In this document: piece by piece, positions 25,532 to 64,000 of the stretch
How the letters are laid out: each line of letters begins with the position of its first letter
How positions within the stretch are numbered: position 1 is the stretch's first letter
Source: Alphaproteobacteria bacterium UBA4588
GTDB taxonomy: Bacteria; Pseudomonadota; Alphaproteobacteria; Rhodobacterales; Rhodobacteraceae
Reading direction: 5' to 3'
DNA length: 64,000 bases
Assembly (NCBI GenBank): GCA_905182195.1
Contig: CAJJAW010000003.1
Location: 220,591-284,590, forward strand
Translations under genes and position numbers: made by a program
The notes under the pieces: generated by a model
Seen by the model: only the letters and a program-made list of their open reading frames with translations
Databases searched by the model: none
Told to the model about the DNA's origin: nothing

Positions 25532-25626
25532 ATTACCCACCCCCAACTTTTGCATCAGTTTGCAAAGTAGAGTACGGGCGTTATTATCCTTACGTCAACA
25601 TATACAGCAAATTAAAGGACTGTACG

Positions 25627-55143: not shown

Positions 55144-56202
55144 TTAGTCTGACAGCTCCGTCTGAATGCGTGTAGTACGCGCCAGAATGTCGACACCCTG
55201 CTGATTAAAGAAGTGCAGCATGTCGATGAATACCCAGTTTTCTTTAAGCTTGTTTCCCTCGCGACGATATACATCGATGACTCGAAACTCGCATAGCTTG
55301 TCGTTCGATGGCAGCCCTAGATATCCACCTGTTGCTTTTGCCTTAAAGTTTGGCCAACCGAAGAAACCACCGCAATTGCCCTCAGCTATACGGGCAATAT
55401 GGCCCGTCCCTGATCGCTCGCTGAGCCCGGCGCGGAAAGGACCTGAGTGCTGTTGTGCATAACGCCCGATCGTATAAGTCGCGCCAATGCCCGCTGGCCC
55501 CCACCAAATCATATCGTCATGCCAGCTGAGAGCGAGCTCTTCTTCAAGCGGCAAACCACTGTTCCATTGCCCCAAATAGCTAATCATTTTGTGCATGACG
55601 TCCATTGTCTTTTGCCCCTCCACAGGATCAGCATCTTCGAACAAAAGCGCATCACGTGCTGCGGGCCCGGGTTGGACCATATGTGCCCCAGCTTGGCCTG
55701 GGAAAGGGGCATACCCAGCCTGAACCATGAGGTGCGGAATATCGAAATAAAAGGCGGTTTCAGCGATCTTGCCATCCACGATTTTGTGAAACTCTGCATA
55801 CCGCAGCATGATCATCTTACCTGTAGGTTGTATTCCCAGCCATGGCGCATCAAACAGGCCCATCAGGTGCCCCATAGAGCACACCCAAACCGATCCAGAA
55901 TCGTCAATAAAATTGTCGCCAGCAAAAAAAACATCTAGGCGGCGTTGGATGTGCCTAACTGCGTTACGAAAAGGCTGCCAAAATAGCTTCGATACTACCT
56001 CCGCGCTAGTCTGCAAGTGAAATGGATGGAAGGCGCGCCACGTGTAGTCGGCTACCGTGTACTGTTTGAGAACAGCAGTGATTCCTTCAAGTTCAGCATT
56101 GTCCAATGCTTCATAGTACTCACGCACCACTCTTTTTTCCGCCTGAAAGCCCAATGCCTTTTTCCTTTTACTTCGGTGCCAGAAGGCTTTCCAGCATCTC
56201 AT
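55144..56202 (-). CDS. Tandem SnoaL-like/NTF2-fold protein (ester cyclase family)
   Basis: A 352-residue cytosolic protein made of two SnoaL-like halves. The first (about 25-165) contains VVREYYEALDNAELEGITAVL and IQPTGKMIMLRYAEFHKIVDG; the second (about 195-340) contains MIWWGPAGIGATYTIGRYAQQH and KLCEFRVIDVYRREGNKLKENWVFIDM. It is a paralogue of the protein at 62536, which shares WGPAGIG and ENWVxIDxLxxxxQ-type endings. TTG 56154 (GFQAEKRVV) is a possible later start. SnoaL folds act in ring closure, hydration or isomerisation; here unknown. Divergent from the ABC operon. Confidence 0.78.
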   Translation of the reverse strand: MRCWKAFWHRSKRKKALGFQAEKRVVREYYEALDNAELEGITAVLKQYTVADYTWRAFHPFHLQTSAEVVSKLFWQPFRNAVRHIQRRLDVFFAGDNFIDDSGSVWVCSMGHLMGLFDAPWLGIQPTGKMIMLRYAEFHKIVDGKIAETAFYFDIPHLMVQAGYAPFPGQAGAHMVQPGPAARDALLFEDADPVEGQKTMDVMHKMISYLGQWNSGLPLEEELALSWHDDMIWWGPAGIGATYTIGRYAQQHSGPFRAGLSERSGTGHIARIAEGNCGGFFGWPNFKAKATGGYLGLPSNDKLCEFRVIDVYRREGNKLKENWVFIDMLHFFNQQGVDILARTTRIQTELSD

Positions 56203-56264
56203 ACACGAATTTTGCCTACCTTTGCAGAATTAGCTTGCATGAACATTTGATAGAAGTCTATCCT

Positions 56265-56284
56265 TTTTGCAAACGTATGCAAAA
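56265..56284. promoter_or_regulatory. 20-bp palindrome, candidate LacI-type operator of the ABC locus
   Basis: TTTTGCAAACGTATGCAAAA is a near-perfect palindrome with a central CG (one mismatched pair), 29 bp before the ATPase ATG and in the divergent region with the SnoaL gene. The shape fits a LacI-family operator. No regulator gene is in the window. Confidence 0.6.
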
Positions 56285-56312
56285 TGATTGGTGAGCATTC
56301 CGGGGGGACTGC

Positions 56313-57361
56313 ATGGCGAAAATTGAACTGCGCAATCTGTCAAAGCGATGGGGAACCTTCGTTGGGGTTGAAGACTTCAATCTTACAATTGCGGATCAAG
56401 AATTCCTTGTCCTGCTAGGCCCATCAGGCTGCGGAAAAACTACAACCATGCGTATGCTTGCAGGTCTGGAAGACGTCACTGGCGGCGATATCATGATCGA
56501 CGGTGTGCGCGTAAATGATCTTGACCCCAAAGACCGCGATGTCGCGATGGTGTTCCAATCTTATGCTTTGTATCCAAATATGAATGTTTACGAAAACATC
56601 CGCTTTCCTTTGAAGGTTCGCAAAGTCCCAGAGGCCGAGCACAAGAAACGTGTTATGCGTGCCTCTGCGATGGTTGAATTGGATGATTTTCTACACCGGA
56701 AGCCTGCCGAACTTTCAGGCGGTCAACGCCAGCGTGTTGCTCTCGCACGCGCCATTGTGCGTGAGCCTAATGTCTTCTTGATGGATGAACCCCTTTCAAA
56801 CCTTGATGCAAAGCTGCGCGTTTCAACCCGCGCCCAGATCAAGAACCTAAGCCATGAACTTAAAGTCACAACGATTTACGTGACCCACGATCAAATCGAA
56901 GCAATGACATTGGCCGACCGCGTTGTCGTAATGAAAGCTGGGGTTGTGCAGCAAGTGGGTAGCCCAACCGAAATTTACGACCGTCCAGCGAATGCCTTTG
57001 TTGCAAGCTTCATCGGATCACCAGCCATGAATTTGGTTTTGGGACATCTACCAGGGGAACGTTTGAAGGCGACCATATTAAGGTTTCAGGGCTTGAAGTC
57101 GCGGATGGTCCTGTTCAGCTTGGCTTCCGTGCTGAGGATGCGTCAATCGTCAAAACAGATGGTGAAATTCATGCCGCTGTCTACACAATGGAACTGCTTG
57201 GCGACGCGACAATGATCACTGTTCGGGTTAACGGCGAACTGGTCTCAGTTAAAGCATCCAAAGAATATCGTGCACAGATCGGCGACATGGTTCGCATCTC
57301 TGTTCCGAGTGAAATTTGCCATTTGTTCGATACACAAACAGGTGCGCGAATTGGGGACTAA
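56313..57361 (+). CDS. ABC transporter ATPase (MalK/UgpC type), frameshifted at the TOBE domain
   Basis: Carbohydrate-type import ATPase. Walker A LLGPSGCGKTTTMRMLAGL, Q-loop VFQSYALYPNMNVYENI, signature LSGGQRQRVALARAI, Walker B FLMDEPLSNLDAKL. The first frame would end at 57215 with a meaningless tail after MNLVLGHLPG. Adding one G to the G4 run at 57054-57057 restores PGGTFEGDHIKVSGLEVADG and a normal TOBE domain ending at 57361, total 349 residues. RBS GGGGGG at the start. The gene leads an ABC operon; a 20-bp palindrome lies upstream. Confidence 0.85.
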
Positions 57362-57394
57362 CCCCAAACGAGATCCCCCAAAAGGGGAGTAACC

Positions 57395-57421
57395 AAGGTG
57401 CGGTCTTGCAAGGCGCACTTT
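57395..57421 (+). other. Intergenic mRNA hairpin before the binding-protein gene
   Basis: AAGGTGCG / CGCACTTT forms an 8-bp stem with one G-U pair; a second small hairpin CCCC-AAAA-GGGG lies just upstream. There is no T-run after it, so it may protect or pace expression of the binding-protein gene rather than terminate transcription. Confidence 0.5.
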
Positions 57422-57443
57422 AATAAAAAACAGGGAGAAACAA

Positions 57444-58680
57444 ATGTTTCTAAAGACAATTACATTCGCAGGTGCATTTGCACTTTTGGGAAGCACAGCA
57501 ATCGCTGGGTGCGGTATTTCAAGCGGTAACGTCAGCATTCTATCTAACGACTTTCCTGCAATTCAAGCCGTGACATCTGCTGCAGCAACTTGTGCAGGTG
57601 ATGGCGTAACTGTTGAAACCAACCTTACCAAAGATCACAAAGACATTATGGTTGCGGCGCTCACCGCCAACCCTGCTCAATACTCCTCTGTGATTGTTTC
57701 CAACTCAACCCTCGTCACATTGATGAACGACGGTTTGGTACGTCCATTGGACGAAATGGTCGCGAAACACGGCGCCGCCTTGAGCAAAAGCCAGTTGATC
57801 ACTGTTAATGGCAAAGTGATGGCTGTTGCCTTCATGGCTAACGCACAGCACCTGTTCTCACGCACAGACGTTTTGGAAGCCGCTGGTGTTGGTGCTATCC
57901 CAGCAACCTACGAAGACGTTCTTGCAGCAGCAGAGAAAATTCGCGCTGCAGGCTTGATGGAATACCCAGTTGCCTTGAACACAAAAGCAGGCTGGAACTT
58001 GGCTGAAGAGTTTGTGAACATGTACATGGGTACAGGCGCTGACTTCTTCAAATCAGGTACTGCTGAAGCTGCCGTAAACAACAAAAACGGCGTCGCTACA
58101 TTGGAAATGCTGAAATCACTAGTGGCCTATTCCAACCCTGATTACCTGACATACGACTCCAACGCGACACAGGCTGAGTGGGAAGCTGGCAATCTTGCAT
58201 TGGCAACAATGTGGGGATCACGCGGCAGCGCAGTTCTGGACGATGAAGGCTCAACAGCCGAAGGTCGTTGCTGGCACTGTTCTTTCTGCAGCACCAACTT
58301 GGGGCAACGGTGCACGCCCAGCTTCAACATTGTGGTGGGACGGTATCGCAATCTCAACCAACGTGTCAGACGAAGATGCAGAAGCAACATTCGTTGCAAT
58401 GATGAACGGCATTTCTTCTGACGTTGTAAAAGCCAACAACGATGCAGCTGTATGGTTGGTTGATGGCTACATGCCAAGTCCAGCATCCGCTGGTGTTTCA
58501 GGCACAGCAGCAGGCGGTGCTGCACCTTACCCAATGTTGCCATTCATGGGTGCATTGCACACAGCCCTTGGCGCAGAAATCACTGATTTCTTGCAAGGTT
58601 CGGAAAGCGCAGAGCAAGCATTGGCTGACGTTGAAGCGGCATATACAGCAGCAGCTAAAGAGCAAGGCTTCTTGAACTAA
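57444..58680 (+). CDS. ABC transporter carbohydrate-type substrate-binding protein, frameshifted
   Basis: Periplasmic family-1 extracellular binding protein, about 411 residues if repaired. A signal peptide MFLKTITFAGAFALLGSTAIAG is followed by a body with TLMNDGLVRPLDEMV, IPATYEDVLAAAEKIRAAG and NLALATMWGSRGSAVLDDEG. After GCC GAA the sequence has GG at 58263-58264 where one G is needed; without it the frame continues VVAGTVLSAAPTWGNGARPASTLWWDGIAI and ends EQGFLN at 58680. Strong RBS AGGGAG. The ligand is unknown; the family suggests a sugar, polyol or glycerol-phosphate type solute. Confidence 0.83.
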
Positions 58681-58688
58681 GCCAAACT

Positions 58689-58713
58689 GGAAGGGGGCTT
58701 AGTGTCCCCTTCC
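58689..58713 (+). other. Intergenic mRNA hairpin after the binding-protein gene
   Basis: Perfect 8-bp stem GGAAGGGG / CCCCTTCC with a 9-nt loop, directly after the binding-protein stop and with no T-run. Such hairpins often stabilise the upstream binding-protein message so it is made in excess over the permeases. Confidence 0.65.
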
Positions 58714-58751
58714 TCACACATCCTATTTCACCCCAGCCTTAGGCGAGCTTG

Positions 58752-59783
58752 ATGAAAAACCGCACCTTCTTTTGGTTTATATTGCCATCGTTGATTACGA
58801 TGTTGCTGTTTATCGCATTGCCGATTGTTTCTGTTGCCGTGCAGTCCCTGCATATCGAGCACCAAGCTGTCATGATAGAGGTGGAAAACTGTGGACCCTT
58901 TGGCTGTAAACAAGAATTACAGGTCGACGTTGAAGAAACCGCGAAGTTAAAAGAAGAACGCCCACTGGGCCAATTCAACGCTTTGGGAACGTACACCAAC
59001 CGCAACCACCTTGCCTTCACCGAAATTGGCCTGGCCTGGCAGTCCAGTACCGGTGTTGTCGATTTTTTCTCCAAGGCGCTGAACCTGCCGTTTTATCGCG
59101 CCCTTTCATTCACGCTGACCTACACTTTCGTGGTGACACCTTTGGTCATCATCTTTGGCTTCATGATCGCGCTTGGCGTAAACACATTGCCAAAGAGGAT
59201 CAAAGGGCCAACAATCTTTATCTCCCTATTACCGATGATAGTAACACCCCTGATTGGATCGTTGATCTTGTTCTGGATGATTGATGCCAACGGTATCTTA
59301 GGCGCGACGCTGCAACGGATATTTGATGATCCAGATCTATCACTGAAAGCATCCCCTACCCTTACTTGGATTATGCTTATGGTTTACGGGGTATGGCACT
59401 CTGCGCCCTTCGCGTTCATCGTTTTCTATGCGGGGCTACAGACAGTGCCTGCCGACACAATGGAAGCTGCTATGATTGATGGGGCCTCACGCTGGGAGCG
59501 TACACGCTATGTTGTCTTGCCTCATTTGATGCCGCTTACGGTCTTCATTTCTCTGATCCAGTTGATGGACAACTTCCGTGTCTTTGAGCCGATCGTCAGC
59601 TTTTCGGCCCAAGCCAGTGCCACTTCTTTGTCGTGGATTATCTACAACGACCTTGTTGGCACCGAGAGCCAGTTCTTTGGCTCAGCCGGTGCTACCTCTG
59701 TCCTAACAATTATCGGTGTGAGCATCCTGCTTATTCCAGTGCTGATCCGCACTTGGCGCGACTTTAATCAGAAGGTGGTATGA
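58752..59783 (+). CDS. ABC transporter permease (MalF type)
   Basis: Inner-membrane permease of 343 residues. The first helix (FWFILPSLITMLLFIALPIVSVAVQSL) is followed by an unusual large periplasmic loop of about 60 residues including VENCGPFGCKQELQV, then five more helices and the EAA-type motif EAAMIDGASRWERTRYVVLPHLMP. ATG 58752 is one codon after the track start TTG. Coupled by an ATGA overlap to the next permease gene. Partners: ATPase at 56313 and binding protein at 57444. Confidence 0.88.
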   Translation: MKNRTFFWFILPSLITMLLFIALPIVSVAVQSLHIEHQAVMIEVENCGPFGCKQELQVDVEETAKLKEERPLGQFNALGTYTNRNHLAFTEIGLAWQSSTGVVDFFSKALNLPFYRALSFTLTYTFVVTPLVIIFGFMIALGVNTLPKRIKGPTIFISLLPMIVTPLIGSLILFWMIDANGILGATLQRIFDDPDLSLKASPTLTWIMLMVYGVWHSAPFAFIVFYAGLQTVPADTMEAAMIDGASRWERTRYVVLPHLMPLTVFISLIQLMDNFRVFEPIVSFSAQASATSLSWIIYNDLVGTESQFFGSAGATSVLTIIGVSILLIPVLIRTWRDFNQKVV

Positions 59784-60664
59784 TGTCAGATATCGTTCAT
59801 CGCCGTTCACCTGTTTTGAGTACGGTCATCTGGGGCCTTGTTCTGGTCTGGATCATAGCCGCGGGCTTTCCGTTCCTTTGGACGCTTTGGGGATCTTTCA
59901 AGGTACAGGGCGACTTCTTCTCGAAGGCCGATTGGGCCAACGCAGTTTACGGCGTGCGCACACAAATCGAAACGGGCGGCGCTCTCACAGGCAATGGGTA
60001 TTACGGCGCTTGGGTTACCAAAGAGTTCGGGCTTGCCGCGTTTAACACCAGCATCGTCGTGGTTTCTGTGGTTATCATCTCATTGACACTTGGTACCCTT
60101 GGGGGCTACGCCCTCGCCCGCTCAGGCAAGAAATATGCGTTCTATCTGTTGATGCTCGCCTTGGTATTTCGTGCCATGCCCCACATCACTTTAGTATCTG
60201 GCTATCTCCTGCCGTTCTTTGAATGGAACCTCTGGGGACACTTACCCACTGCGATCATCGTGATGGTGGCAATTAATCAACCCTTCACCCTTTGGATGTT
60301 GCACAGCTTTTTCCTAAACATTCCCAAAGACCTAGACGAAAGTGCAATGGTTGATGGCTGCACACGTTTTCAAGCATTTCGTCATGTCATTGTGCCAGTC
60401 ATGTGGCCAGGCGTTGTCACGACAGGATTATTTTCCTTCTTGCTAGCCTACAATGACTTCACCGTGACCGCGACATTGCTAAGCCAAGCAAACCAGACGA
60501 TGGTGCCAAAAATTGCCAGTTTCTTGGGAACAACCCAGACTGAGGGCAACATCATGTTTGCAGTTGCCGCAGTTGTTTCTGCAACTGCACCATTGTTTGT
60601 CTTGATCCTATTTTTCCAACGCCAAATCGTAAGTGGCCTAACAGCAGGAGCCGTCAAAGGATGA
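59780..60664 (+). CDS. ABC transporter permease (MalG type)
   Basis: Second permease, 294 residues, six helices. The EAA-type loop [31 protein letters not shown] is the CUT1 pattern. The C-terminus ([20 protein letters not shown]) is the typical family ending, with [15 protein letters not shown] being the recognised G-x-x-x-G tail. It overlaps both neighbours by 4 bp, so it is translated with them. Confidence 0.9.
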
Positions 60665-62535
60665 GCGGAGCACGCCCAGAACAAGCCGTATTGTCGCGCG
60701 ACACAGACATGTCAAAAACGGCTGAAACCCGCGCGGTTATCGAAGGTATGGTTGATGGTCTCAACGACCACCGCATTGCGGATATTGGTGAGTTTTTCAG
60801 TCAAGGGTTTAGCTGGATGGGCAACACAGGCTGTGGAACGAAAGATGGTATCAAGGAATTCCAAGAAAACTGGCAAAAGCCGTTCCAAGCCGCATTCTCG
60901 GATAAGGTTTGCGTTGATGAGGCGCGCCTTTACATGGGCGAATGGGCCGCGGCATTTGGACGGCAAGAGGCTTTGCACTCGGGCAAGTTTATGGGTGTCG
61001 AGGCCTCGGGCAAGCGGATTAAAATTCGCTATATGGATTTTTGGAAGGTGGAAAATGGCAAAATTACAGACAACTGGGTGATGGTCGATTTTCCACACGT
61101 CCTTGCGCAATTGGGCGTGGATGTTTTCAACGGCCATGGCTGGGAAACCTATGACCGTGGCGAGAAAACGCCGCCCTCCTCCTACGACAGAAACAGGAAA
61201 AGACTGATGGCAGTAGAATACCTAAAACGCGGAAAACCAGACGTAGAGCGGGCTGAAGATGACGCTAAAACCAAAGCTGTCGTCGAAGTCACTTTGAAAG
61301 ATATAGAGCTGCGCGGCGATGCAGCTGTGCGTGATCTATCAGCCAAGTTTGACAACTATACGCCCGCATCCTTCAAGCTGTCACAAACGGAAATTGAGGG
61401 TCTGATCGCGTCCCTTTCGGATCGCGAATTGGCAGATATTAAGTTCGCCCAAGAACAGGTGCGCAATTTTGCCCAAGCCCAGCGCGACAGCATGCTAGAT
61501 ATCGAAGTTGAAACAATGCCCGGCGTCATTCTAGGTCACAAGAACATCCCCGTTCAATCGGTTGGCTGTTATGTTCCAGGCGGTAAGTTCCCGATGGTTG
61601 CCTCGGCCCATATGTCTGTGGCCACAGCCACAGTTGCAGGCGTTCCACGAATTATTGCCTGCACCCCACCCTTTAACGGTAAACCCAACGCCGCAGTGAT
61701 CGCGGCCATGCACCTTGGTGGTGCCCATGAAATCCACGTCGTGGGCGGCATCCAAGCCGTTGGTGCGATGGCCATTGGCACTGAAACAATCGAACCTGTT
61801 CATATGCTTGTTGGCCCGGGCAATGCGTTTGTCGCTGAAGCCAAACGCCAGTTGTTTGGTCGCGTGGGTATTGATTTGTTCGCAGGCCCAACAGAGACGA
61901 TGGTGATTGCTGACGACACCGTTGATGGTGAGTTATGTGCGACCGACCTTTTGGGGCAAGCGGAGCATGGTTATAACAGCCCCGCCATACTGCTGACCAA
62001 TTCGCGTAAATTGGCCGAAGACACGCTGCGCGAAATCGATCGCTTGCTCAAAATCCTTCCGACTGCGGATACCGCATCTGTTAGCTGGGCGGATTACGGT
62101 GAAGTCATTTTATGTGACACCTATGACGAAATGCTGGCAGTTGCTGACGATATCGCGTCTGAGCATGTACAAGTCATGACAGATCGTGACGATTGGTTCT
62201 TGGAGCACATGACCTGTTATGGTGCTTTGTTTCTTGGGGCGCGCACGAACGTATCAAATGGGGATAAAGTGATCGGTACGAACCACACGTTGCCAACCAA
62301 AAAGGCTGGTCGCTACACGGGCGGGCTTTGGGTTGGGAAATTCCTGAAGACCCATTCCTACCAAAAAATTACTACAGACGAAGCCGCAACGCTGGTTGGC
62401 GAATACGGCAGTCGCCTCTGTATGCTTGAGGGGTTTGTAGGTCATGCTGAGCAATGCAACGTTCGCGTGCGCCGCTATGGTGGGATCAACGTCCCATACG
62501 GCACAGGCGCGCCTTATCGGGATGTGAAAGATTAA
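60661..62535 (+). CDS. SnoaL-like domain joined to histidinol-dehydrogenase/HpsN-like dehydrogenase
   Basis: One open frame of 624 residues. Residues 1-165 are a SnoaL/NTF2-like domain ([41 protein letters not shown]); residues 183-624 are a HisD-type NAD dehydrogenase ([16 protein letters not shown]-type motif as [59 protein letters not shown]) most like sulfopropanediol dehydrogenase HpsN. Inside, AGGAAAA-GACTG precedes ATG 61207, a natural start for the dehydrogenase. Removing one A at 61165-61168 would end the SnoaL part at TGATG there, so the fusion may be an artefact. Confidence 0.82.
61195..61209 (+). promoter_or_regulatory. Internal RBS and start codon of the dehydrogenase part
   Basis: AGGAAAAGACTG precedes ATG (61207), where the HisD/HpsN-like protein would start ([16 protein letters not shown]). 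A shifted frame of the upstream domain ends at TGATG here, the usual overlap of separate genes. This decides how the fused frame should be read. Confidence 0.6.
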
Positions 62536-63582
62536 ATGAACGTCACTCGCAGCAATACCGAAGTAATCCAACCGCTGCTGGCGGCATTGCGTGATTTTGA
62601 CGAAGCAACTGTACGAGCCGCGCTGCAACAGCTCATGGCACCGGACGCGATTGTTCACATGTGTCACCCTTTTGGGGATCTTGCAGCAGAGGCGCTTTAC
62701 GATACTTGTTTTGCGCCCTTGTACGAATCCATGCCTGACCTTGAGCGGCGCGATACAATCCGTGTCAGCGGCAAAACCCCTGAGGGCAACGATTGGATTG
62801 GATGTTGTGGCTCTTACATTGGAACCTTTGCGGCCCCCTTTCTAGATATCCCACCGACGGGCCATCTCGCACATATGAGGTTTCACGAGTTTTACCGTTT
62901 TGTGGGGGGACAAATTGTTGAGGTTCAAGCGATCTGGGACATTCCAGAACTAATGATGCAGGCCAATGCATGGCCAATGGTCCCAAGTCTGGGTCGTGAA
63001 TGGCATACCCCTGGCCCTATCACCCAAGACGGATTGCTGGACGCAACCGATCGAGAGGATCGCGCGCAGTTCTGCCAAACTCATGTGCTACACATGCTGG
63101 CCGCGTTGGTGCGTCATCCTGCCGAACCTGTTGAAGCAATGGAACTTGAACGCTTTTGGCATCCTAAGATGACATGGTACGGGCCAGCGGGCATCGGTAC
63201 TGCGCGTGGCATTTCTGGCTTTCGCCATTGGCATCAAATCCCCTTTCTAAACGCAATGCCAGATCGTGGGCAGTTTCCCGATGAAACAACTTCCCACTTC
63301 TTCGCCGAAGGTGATTATGTCGCCGTCACTGGATGGCCAAATATGGTTCAAACTGTAACTGATCCAGGATGGATGGGTATTGCGCCCAATGATCAGAAGA
63401 TTGAAATGCGATCCTTGGATTTCTGGCGTTTGGATGGTGACAAAATTCGGGAGAACTGGGTTCTTATTGATCTGCTTGATGTCTACCGCCAACTAGGCAT
63501 TGACGTGTTTGCACGCTTGCGCGAATTCAATAAAGCGCGGAACATCGGACCTTTGAATTTCCCTATCGGAGGCCGACTGTGA
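62536..63582 (+). CDS. Tandem SnoaL-like protein, second copy
   Basis: A 348-residue protein with two SnoaL-like halves: DAIVHMCHPFGDLAAEALYD and IPPTGHLAHMRFHEFYRFVGGQIVEVQAIWDIPELM in the first, MTWYGPAGIGTARGISGFRHWHQIPFL and IEMRSLDFWRLDGDKIRENWVLIDLLDVYRQLGIDVF in the second. It parallels the protein at 55144. Its ATG directly follows the stop of the dehydrogenase, and its stop overlaps the SDR start (GTGA). Function unknown. Confidence 0.78.
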   Translation: MNVTRSNTEVIQPLLAALRDFDEATVRAALQQLMAPDAIVHMCHPFGDLAAEALYDTCFAPLYESMPDLERRDTIRVSGKTPEGNDWIGCCGSYIGTFAAPFLDIPPTGHLAHMRFHEFYRFVGGQIVEVQAIWDIPELMMQANAWPMVPSLGREWHTPGPITQDGLLDATDREDRAQFCQTHVLHMLAALVRHPAEPVEAMELERFWHPKMTWYGPAGIGTARGISGFRHWHQIPFLNAMPDRGQFPDETTSHFFAEGDYVAVTGWPNMVQTVTDPGWMGIAPNDQKIEMRSLDFWRLDGDKIRENWVLIDLLDVYRQLGIDVFARLREFNKARNIGPLNFPIGGRL

Positions 63583-64000
63583 AACTACCAACGACACCGT
63601 CACTTTCGTTAAAAGGCATGCGCGCGTTGGTCACCGGTGCGTCCTCTGGCATTGGCCAAGCCTGCGCTGTGGCAATGGCCGAAGCTGGTGCGATGGTTGT
63701 GTGTGCCGCACGTGGCGCAGATCGCCTGAACAAAACCGTAGACGCCATGAAAACCAAAGGTTTGGGCGCTGAGGCGTTGGTTTTGGATCAATCAGATCTG
63801 GACTCTTTGAAGGCAGTGTTGGTCGACCCGTATGACATTATCATAAACTCAGCTGGTCTTGCACGCCACAAGTCTGCACTTGAGACCCAGCCAGAGGATT
63901 TTGATGCGGTTATGGACGTGAATTTACGCGCGGCGTATTTCTTGTCCACCTATGCAGCCAAAGCTATGAAAGCTGCAAATATTAAAGGGTCGATCATCCA
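63579..64000 (+). CDS. Short-chain dehydrogenase/reductase, partial
   Basis: The start is GTG 63579, with a GGAGG RBS, overlapping the previous stop by 3 bp; the gene runs off the right edge after about 140 residues. The coenzyme motif TGASSGIGQ (about 20-28) and NSAG with a following DVNLRAAYFLS are typical of the SDR family. The catalytic YxxxK lies outside the window. It is the last visible gene of the ABC/SnoaL/dehydrogenase locus, pointing to oxidation or reduction of an alcohol or keto substrate. Confidence 0.9.
   Translation, partial: MKLPTTPSLSLKGMRALVTGASSGIGQACAVAMAEAGAMVVCAARGADRLNKTVDAMKTKGLGAEALVLDQSDLDSLKAVLVDPYDIIINSAGLARHKSALETQPEDFDAVMDVNLRAAYFLSTYAAKAMKAANIKGSII

Follow-up and report, generated by a model that had tools for sequence, protein, structure and literature searches.

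The locus at the right-hand end of this stretch raises the question of which compound a bacterium of the Rhodobacteraceae would take up through a carbohydrate-type importer and process with several SnoaL-like proteins around a single dehydrogenase. The window, i.e. the whole stretch of 64,000 nucleotides from Alphaproteobacteria bacterium UBA4588 that was analysed, had been described from its letters alone as carrying an unassigned catabolic locus for an imported polyol or sulfonate. By Pfam and NCBIfam profiles, the importer in the window consists of a UgpC-type ATPase, a family-1 solute-binding protein and two permeases; a SnoaL domain upstream of a HisD-family dehydrogenase follows, then a tandem SnoaL protein and a short-chain dehydrogenase (SDR), and neighbouring genes are joined by short overlaps (Table 1). 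Pfam also confirmed a further tandem SnoaL gene in divergent orientation (its true start may sit further in, with relatives of ~333 aa). The five SnoaL halves counted by the sequence-only reading are five SnoaL domains in the window, and its overlapping gene series with tandem SnoaL protein and SDR is present, the SDR being cut at the contig end.

Table 1. Features of the locus in the window and of its continuation on contig C5
Feature	Coordinates	Strand	Evidence
SnoA, divergent tandem SnoaL protein	55144..56202	-	Pfam SnoaL, two stretches; orthologues at same place in relatives
Putative LacI-type operator palindrome TTTGCAAACGTATGCAAA	56266..56283	.	Recurrence in promoter gaps, genome counts
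Importer ATPase, UgpC/MalK type, frameshifted near 57,060-57,080	56313..57361	+	Pfam, NCBIfam, frame analysis
Family-1 solute-binding protein, frameshifted near 58,260	57444..58680	+	Pfam, frame analysis, solved relatives
Permease F, MalF/UgpA type	58749..59783	+	Pfam, NCBIfam
Permease G, MalG type	59780..60664	+	Pfam, NCBIfam
SnoB, single-domain SnoaL; 1-bp indel at 61,178 takes stop out of frame	60661..61206	+	Pfam, contig C5 comparison
HisD/HpsN-like dehydrogenase, motif GKFPM	61207..62535	+	Pfam, solved relatives, motif survey
SnoC, tandem SnoaL protein	62536..63582	+	Pfam, relatives, structure model
SDR, cut by contig end	63579..64000	+	Contig C5 comparison
SDR complete (252 aa), then LacI, SnoD, bicupin, MetE-like, RraA-like	contig C5, L009 4397-10180		Pfam

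The importer is of the CUT1 type (SBP_bac_1 binding protein, MalF/MalG-type permeases and UgpC/MalK-type ATPase, by Pfam and NCBIfam), which bears out its description as carbohydrate-type. It is not complete as assembled: the ATPase and the binding protein each leave their frame once and continue in another. Since the counterparts in relatives are intact (ATPase ~350 aa, binding protein 405-420 aa), we read both frameshifts as sequence or assembly errors, though the two genes may still be true pseudogenes in UBA4588. A similar correction applies to the 624-aa frame that had been taken as one SnoaL plus HisD/HpsN-like protein. It consists of two genes joined by one surplus base relative to contig C5, where a 181-aa SnoaL ORF stops and a separate dehydrogenase ORF starts (C5 carries its own 1-bp indel further on). 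The SnoaL gene and the dehydrogenase lie in different frames at all 91 other dehydrogenase genes, and on these two comparisons a new bifunctional SnoaL-HisD enzyme was rejected as an indel artefact.

Contig C3 ends at base 64,000, inside the SDR gene. The end of C3 (window 59183-64000) and the start of C5 (L009 1-4818) overlap over 4,818 bp with 98.2% identity, 84 mismatches and two 1-bp gaps; a second copy of the locus, suggested by a near-copy in the genome search, was rejected in favour of this contig overlap without duplication. The two ends diverge as would be expected if two strains had gone into one assembly. C5 supplies the remainder of the SDR and five more cluster genes. They encode a LacI regulator, SnoD (the third tandem SnoaL protein), a bicupin, a MetE-like putative methyltransferase and an RraA-like candidate aldolase. 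The window holds the first half of a gene set, comprising the importer and the first enzymes, and the second half lay beyond what the sequence-only reading could see. Downstream of the cluster (L009 12276-19824), repetitive long open frames of 660 and 1858 aa overlap in different frames and are perhaps one frameshifted repeat protein.

A search for the same gene order in other roseobacters, proposed by the sequence-only reading, showed that order and families recur in most of the inspected loci, so the locus is not a product of chance. A complete annotated example is found on a plasmid of Ruegeria conchae (K3740_RS20355-20435), where four of the SnoaL proteins are tandem and one has a single domain. 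Among 298 sampled Rhodobacteraceae genomes, nearly all of different genera, a relative of SnoC was present in 118 and the MetE-like protein in 116; with strict cut-offs 88 of the 298 genera had both, where 36 would be expected (p=4e-43, a guide only, the genomes being related). Conservation of the set extends from Rhodobacteraceae to SUP05, other gammaproteobacteria and Rhizobiaceae, and carriers of the MetE-like protein include Ruegeria, Shimia, Phaeobacter italicus, Planktomarina, HTCC2255, SUP05/Thioglobus, Porticoccaceae, Granulosicoccaceae and Rhizobiaceae. Over most of this range the dehydrogenase and the MetE-like protein are ~80% identical. Most MetE-like carriers have more cluster genes alongside; the exceptions are L077, where the MetE-like gene stands by itself, and a few short contigs with nothing else. 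Partial sets were found on plasmids of Vibrio pelagius and of the archaeon Halobellus limi. Relatives carry extra genes: an alpha/beta hydrolase adjoins RraA, an amidohydrolase lies behind SnoA, and some have a GMC oxidoreductase (GMC oxidase), a fourth tandem SnoaL protein or a SAM methyltransferase. The last, of class I, lies between the cupin and MetE-like genes in ~15 loci (e.g. L158 11041-11658 and L081 9220-9984). The flanks of the SUP05 loci (carnitine-type, MttB-like and DMGDH-like, read by eye) and the sarcosine-oxidase flanks in Vibrio were set aside as clues to the substrate, not being common to the loci.

snoA and the ATPase gene are separated by 110 bp, and this gap contains the palindrome TTTGCAAACGTATGCAAA, which is present with at most 2 mismatches in 17 of 18 corresponding gaps (13 of them perfect), often as a pair 54-56 bp apart. 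Its perfect 15-letter version, for which a simple base-composition model predicts ~1 chance site in the whole 298-genome set, occurs in 63 of the genomes, and 59 of these 63 are cluster carriers (p=6e-24). Where the set is split, the fragments have a palindrome of their own, upstream of hisD (G231, G181), of metE-hydrolase (G127), of the importer or of snoA-amidohydrolase; indeed, 18 of 20 further sites inspected sit at such split-off fragments. We infer that the palindrome is a LacI-type operator, to which the LacI protein of the cluster would bind. Since the palindrome of the divergent promoter also starts the fragments, the view that the gene set is one regulon, a conserved and co-regulated unit, is well supported by sequence. 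For the MetE-like protein, hydrolase, dehydrogenase and importer, the operator at the fragments is also the strongest sign of a role in one common process. Other LacI-type palindromes (TTTGCATCAGTTTGCAAA, TTTGCAACCGGTTGCAAA), seen at window 25549-25566 and at positions 216021 and 223660 of contig C1 of the same genome, probably serve different regulators.

For the process itself we propose a LacI-controlled catabolic regulon, a scheme which, judged from gene families and with the order of its steps guessed, has in our estimate about an even chance of being right as a whole. The CUT1 importer would take up a small oxygenated compound, probably resembling a sugar, polyol or cyclitol, and this compound would relieve LacI repression. 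The HisD/HpsN-like enzyme would oxidise a CH2OH group next to a hydroxyl to a carboxylate with two NAD+, and the SDR would oxidise a secondary alcohol. SnoaL enzymes would act on one intermediate after another by acid-base chemistry, be it dehydration, isomerisation or C-C cleavage, and the MetE-like zinc enzyme would transfer a methyl group of the substrate to homocysteine with no need for folate. Finally, the hydrolase and an RraA- or HpcH-type aldolase would perform a retro-aldol cleavage to pyruvate. CUT1 importers and LacI regulators are families typical of sugar-like ligands; together with the enzyme families they point to a sugar-, polyol- or cyclitol-like substrate, perhaps methylated, and the polyol half of the earlier suggestion fits both. 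Predicting the ligand from homologues of the binding protein, also proposed at the outset, did not single out a compound: the solved relatives are generic sugar binders.

For the SnoaL proteins, a predicted model of SnoC (mean pLDDT 76) gave Foldseek matches to SnoaL-type proteins and polyketide cyclases with the NTF2 fold, and one acidic residue per half, D135 and D312, is invariant in 14 of 14 sequences. Enzymes of this fold are known from catabolism: LdpA and PcfL are gamma-formaldehyde lyases of lignin-dimer catabolism and MgaD is a predicted tautomerase of syringate catabolism (PMC12997858, PMC12314914). Because of these cases, acid-base chemistry such as hydration, cyclisation or isomerisation is plausible by analogy for the SnoaL proteins. 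The likeness, which covers dehydration, deformylation and predicted tautomerisation, is at the level of the fold, whereas here the proteins are tandem two-domain forms, four or five per cluster, accompanied by a CUT1 importer.

In the MetE-like protein, the zinc residues H248, C250, E282 and C348 and the homocysteine residues S16, E68 and D202, mapped by sequence motif and alignment to 3RPD, are invariant in 12 orthologues, and the folate domain is absent. This suggests folate-independent methyl transfer to homocysteine. The protein shares the conserved residues and the missing folate domain with the core methionine synthases MesA-MesD (PMC7857596), but differs from them in belonging to a catabolic regulon; it is 24% identical to the methionine synthase beside DUF1852 in Vibrio pelagius. 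In two sphingomonad loci (L137, L138), a MetE-like protein of 51-54% identity appears to share an operon with an NTF2 protein and an IclR regulator, and genes of methoxyaromatic catabolism are close by.

The RraA-like protein matches PF03737 and has an invariant R128-D129-x2-D132, placed 21 residues from G106, where the motif of RraA-type pyruvate aldolases is G-X20-R-D-X2-E/D. It resembles the LigK/GalC-type aldolases in domain and R-D-x2-D motif, yet scores far below the ligK family cut-off. HpcH/HpaI aldolase genes adjoin the hydrolase or MetE-like gene in the divergent loci L162, L165 and L167 and lie elsewhere near cluster genes in L161 and L044, a placement that supports a predicted retro-aldol last step.

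Several observations weigh against parts of the proposed scheme. Some clusters that are otherwise full do without the MetE-like gene (Paracoccus alcaliphilus, Ensifer E-60; ten genera); methyl transfer is therefore not universal and the methyl step may be optional. The haloarchaeal and Vibrio versions have no dehydrogenase. Moreover, the bicupin keeps H76, H78 and E82, but its usual third metal His is Arg120 in 14 of 14 sequences.

A more specific form of the scheme, in which four or five SnoaL enzymes act on successive intermediates, folate-independent methyl transfer leads from the growth substrate to homocysteine, and the substrate is a common methylated cyclic metabolite of phytoplankton, e.g. 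of the mycosporine/gadusol type or a methylated cyclitol, is put forward tentatively and is in our view unlikely, if worth keeping in mind. Rather doubtful is a substrate with a methoxylated six-membered ring bearing CH2OH, for instance a mycosporine/gadusol-type cyclohexenone or a methoxyaromatic compound. The dehydrogenase would then form the carboxylate, a SnoaL protein would dehydrate (aromatise) the ring, the MetE-like protein would remove the O-methyl group, the cupin would open the ring, and the hydrolase and aldolase would finish as in gallate-type pathways. Such a route is consistent with the sphingomonad relatives of the MetE-like protein, which adjoin a GcvT-type (LigM-like) gene, metF, purU and ligAB, with a cupin model resembling quercetinase (1y3t) and salicylate dioxygenase, with amidohydrolase, hydrolase and RraA-like families reminiscent of the lower gallate pathway, and with the NTF2-fold enzymes of lignin catabolism. 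However, the CUT1 importer and LacI point to a sugar-like ligand, the absent metal His of the cupin and the clusters without MetE-like protein count against it as well, and the literature search gave no link to such compounds.

Degradation of sulfopropanediol (DHPS) or another sulfonated polyol, the sulfonate half of the earlier suggestion, is very improbable. It is true that the nearest solved structures to the dehydrogenase are HpsN enzymes, which score far better than HisD entries, and that the zinc ligands and the catalytic Glu-His pair of HpsN are kept (alignment to 8v35/8wwe); all four dehydrogenase motifs were matched in 72 of 91 loci, the remainder missing at least one simple pattern. 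Nevertheless, the HpsN motif GRY[A/S]H, in which the His binds the sulfonate (PMC11382572), is replaced by GKFPM in 89 of 91 cluster loci and by GKYPL in two, which puts Met or Leu at the position of His126; the GSAPL motif of HisD is likewise replaced by GKFPM. In addition, GRYSH is encoded in the UBA4588 genome by a separate gene that has an SDR and an MDR gene as neighbours, an arrangement like the hpsNOP cluster. DHPS is unlikely because the sulfonate-binding His is absent and the genome has this separate HpsN, and an HpsN/DHPS-sulfonate pathway was rejected on both grounds. The locus does share with the hpsNOP cluster of Roseobacteraceae (PMC11382572, PMC11131964) a HisD-fold zinc NAD dehydrogenase and a regulator, importer and SDR in one cluster, but it has no hpsO/hpsP pair and carries instead four to five SnoaL proteins and bicupin, MetE-like and aldolase genes. 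For DHPS clusters, the literature searched reports no SnoaL, cupin or MetE-like genes, in line with the earlier remark that SnoaL proteins are foreign to sulfopropanediol pathways. By family, the dehydrogenase would be expected to oxidise CH2OH to COOH next to a hydroxyl on a non-sulfonated substrate. A different HisD-family paralogue (GRYPL/GRFPL) lies beside or inside the cluster in three genomes (L159 3403-4689, L166 4725-6017 and L167 13744-15039) and occurs elsewhere in the window genome (contig C4, L005).

A biosynthetic cluster in which the SnoaL proteins act as polyketide cyclases and the importer is incidental, as the predicted fold of SnoC might suggest, is hardly credible: the annotated examples show neither a ketosynthase nor an acyl carrier protein nor any other assembly enzyme; importer, LacI control and aldolase indicate catabolism; and one operator is common to the importer and SnoaL genes.

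The conserved, co-regulated set looks catabolic and, as the sequence-only reading had supposed, has no described pathway of this make-up in the literature searched. The same search, with most subscription papers outside its scope and hence weak as evidence of absence, found neither a described cluster nor SnoaL proteins in roseobacters nor mycosporine degradation. The core of the set is kept by ~40% of the sampled Rhodobacteraceae genera and by members of SUP05, Planktomarina and Ruegeria. Since it is kept so widely, with dehydrogenase and MetE-like protein so similar across carriers, a common marine metabolite is suggested, whose degradation is not described in the literature searched. The binding protein and the LacI operator offer a direct handle for finding the ligand, and the MetE-like protein offers a test of a new methyl-transfer route in catabolism.

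Importer-plus-SnoaL modules may be a wider theme. Two loci (L041 and L038, in G198 and G231) represent a second type, in which a LysR gene is divergent from the same importer and one or two tandem SnoaL genes, while the dehydrogenase and the MetE-like gene are absent; L041 has an operator-like palindrome CTTGCATACGATTGCAAG at this LysR/importer locus. The Phaeobacter piscinae plasmid pP14_a (L144) carries another LacI gene with a CUT1 importer and three SnoaL-type genes, again without the dehydrogenase.
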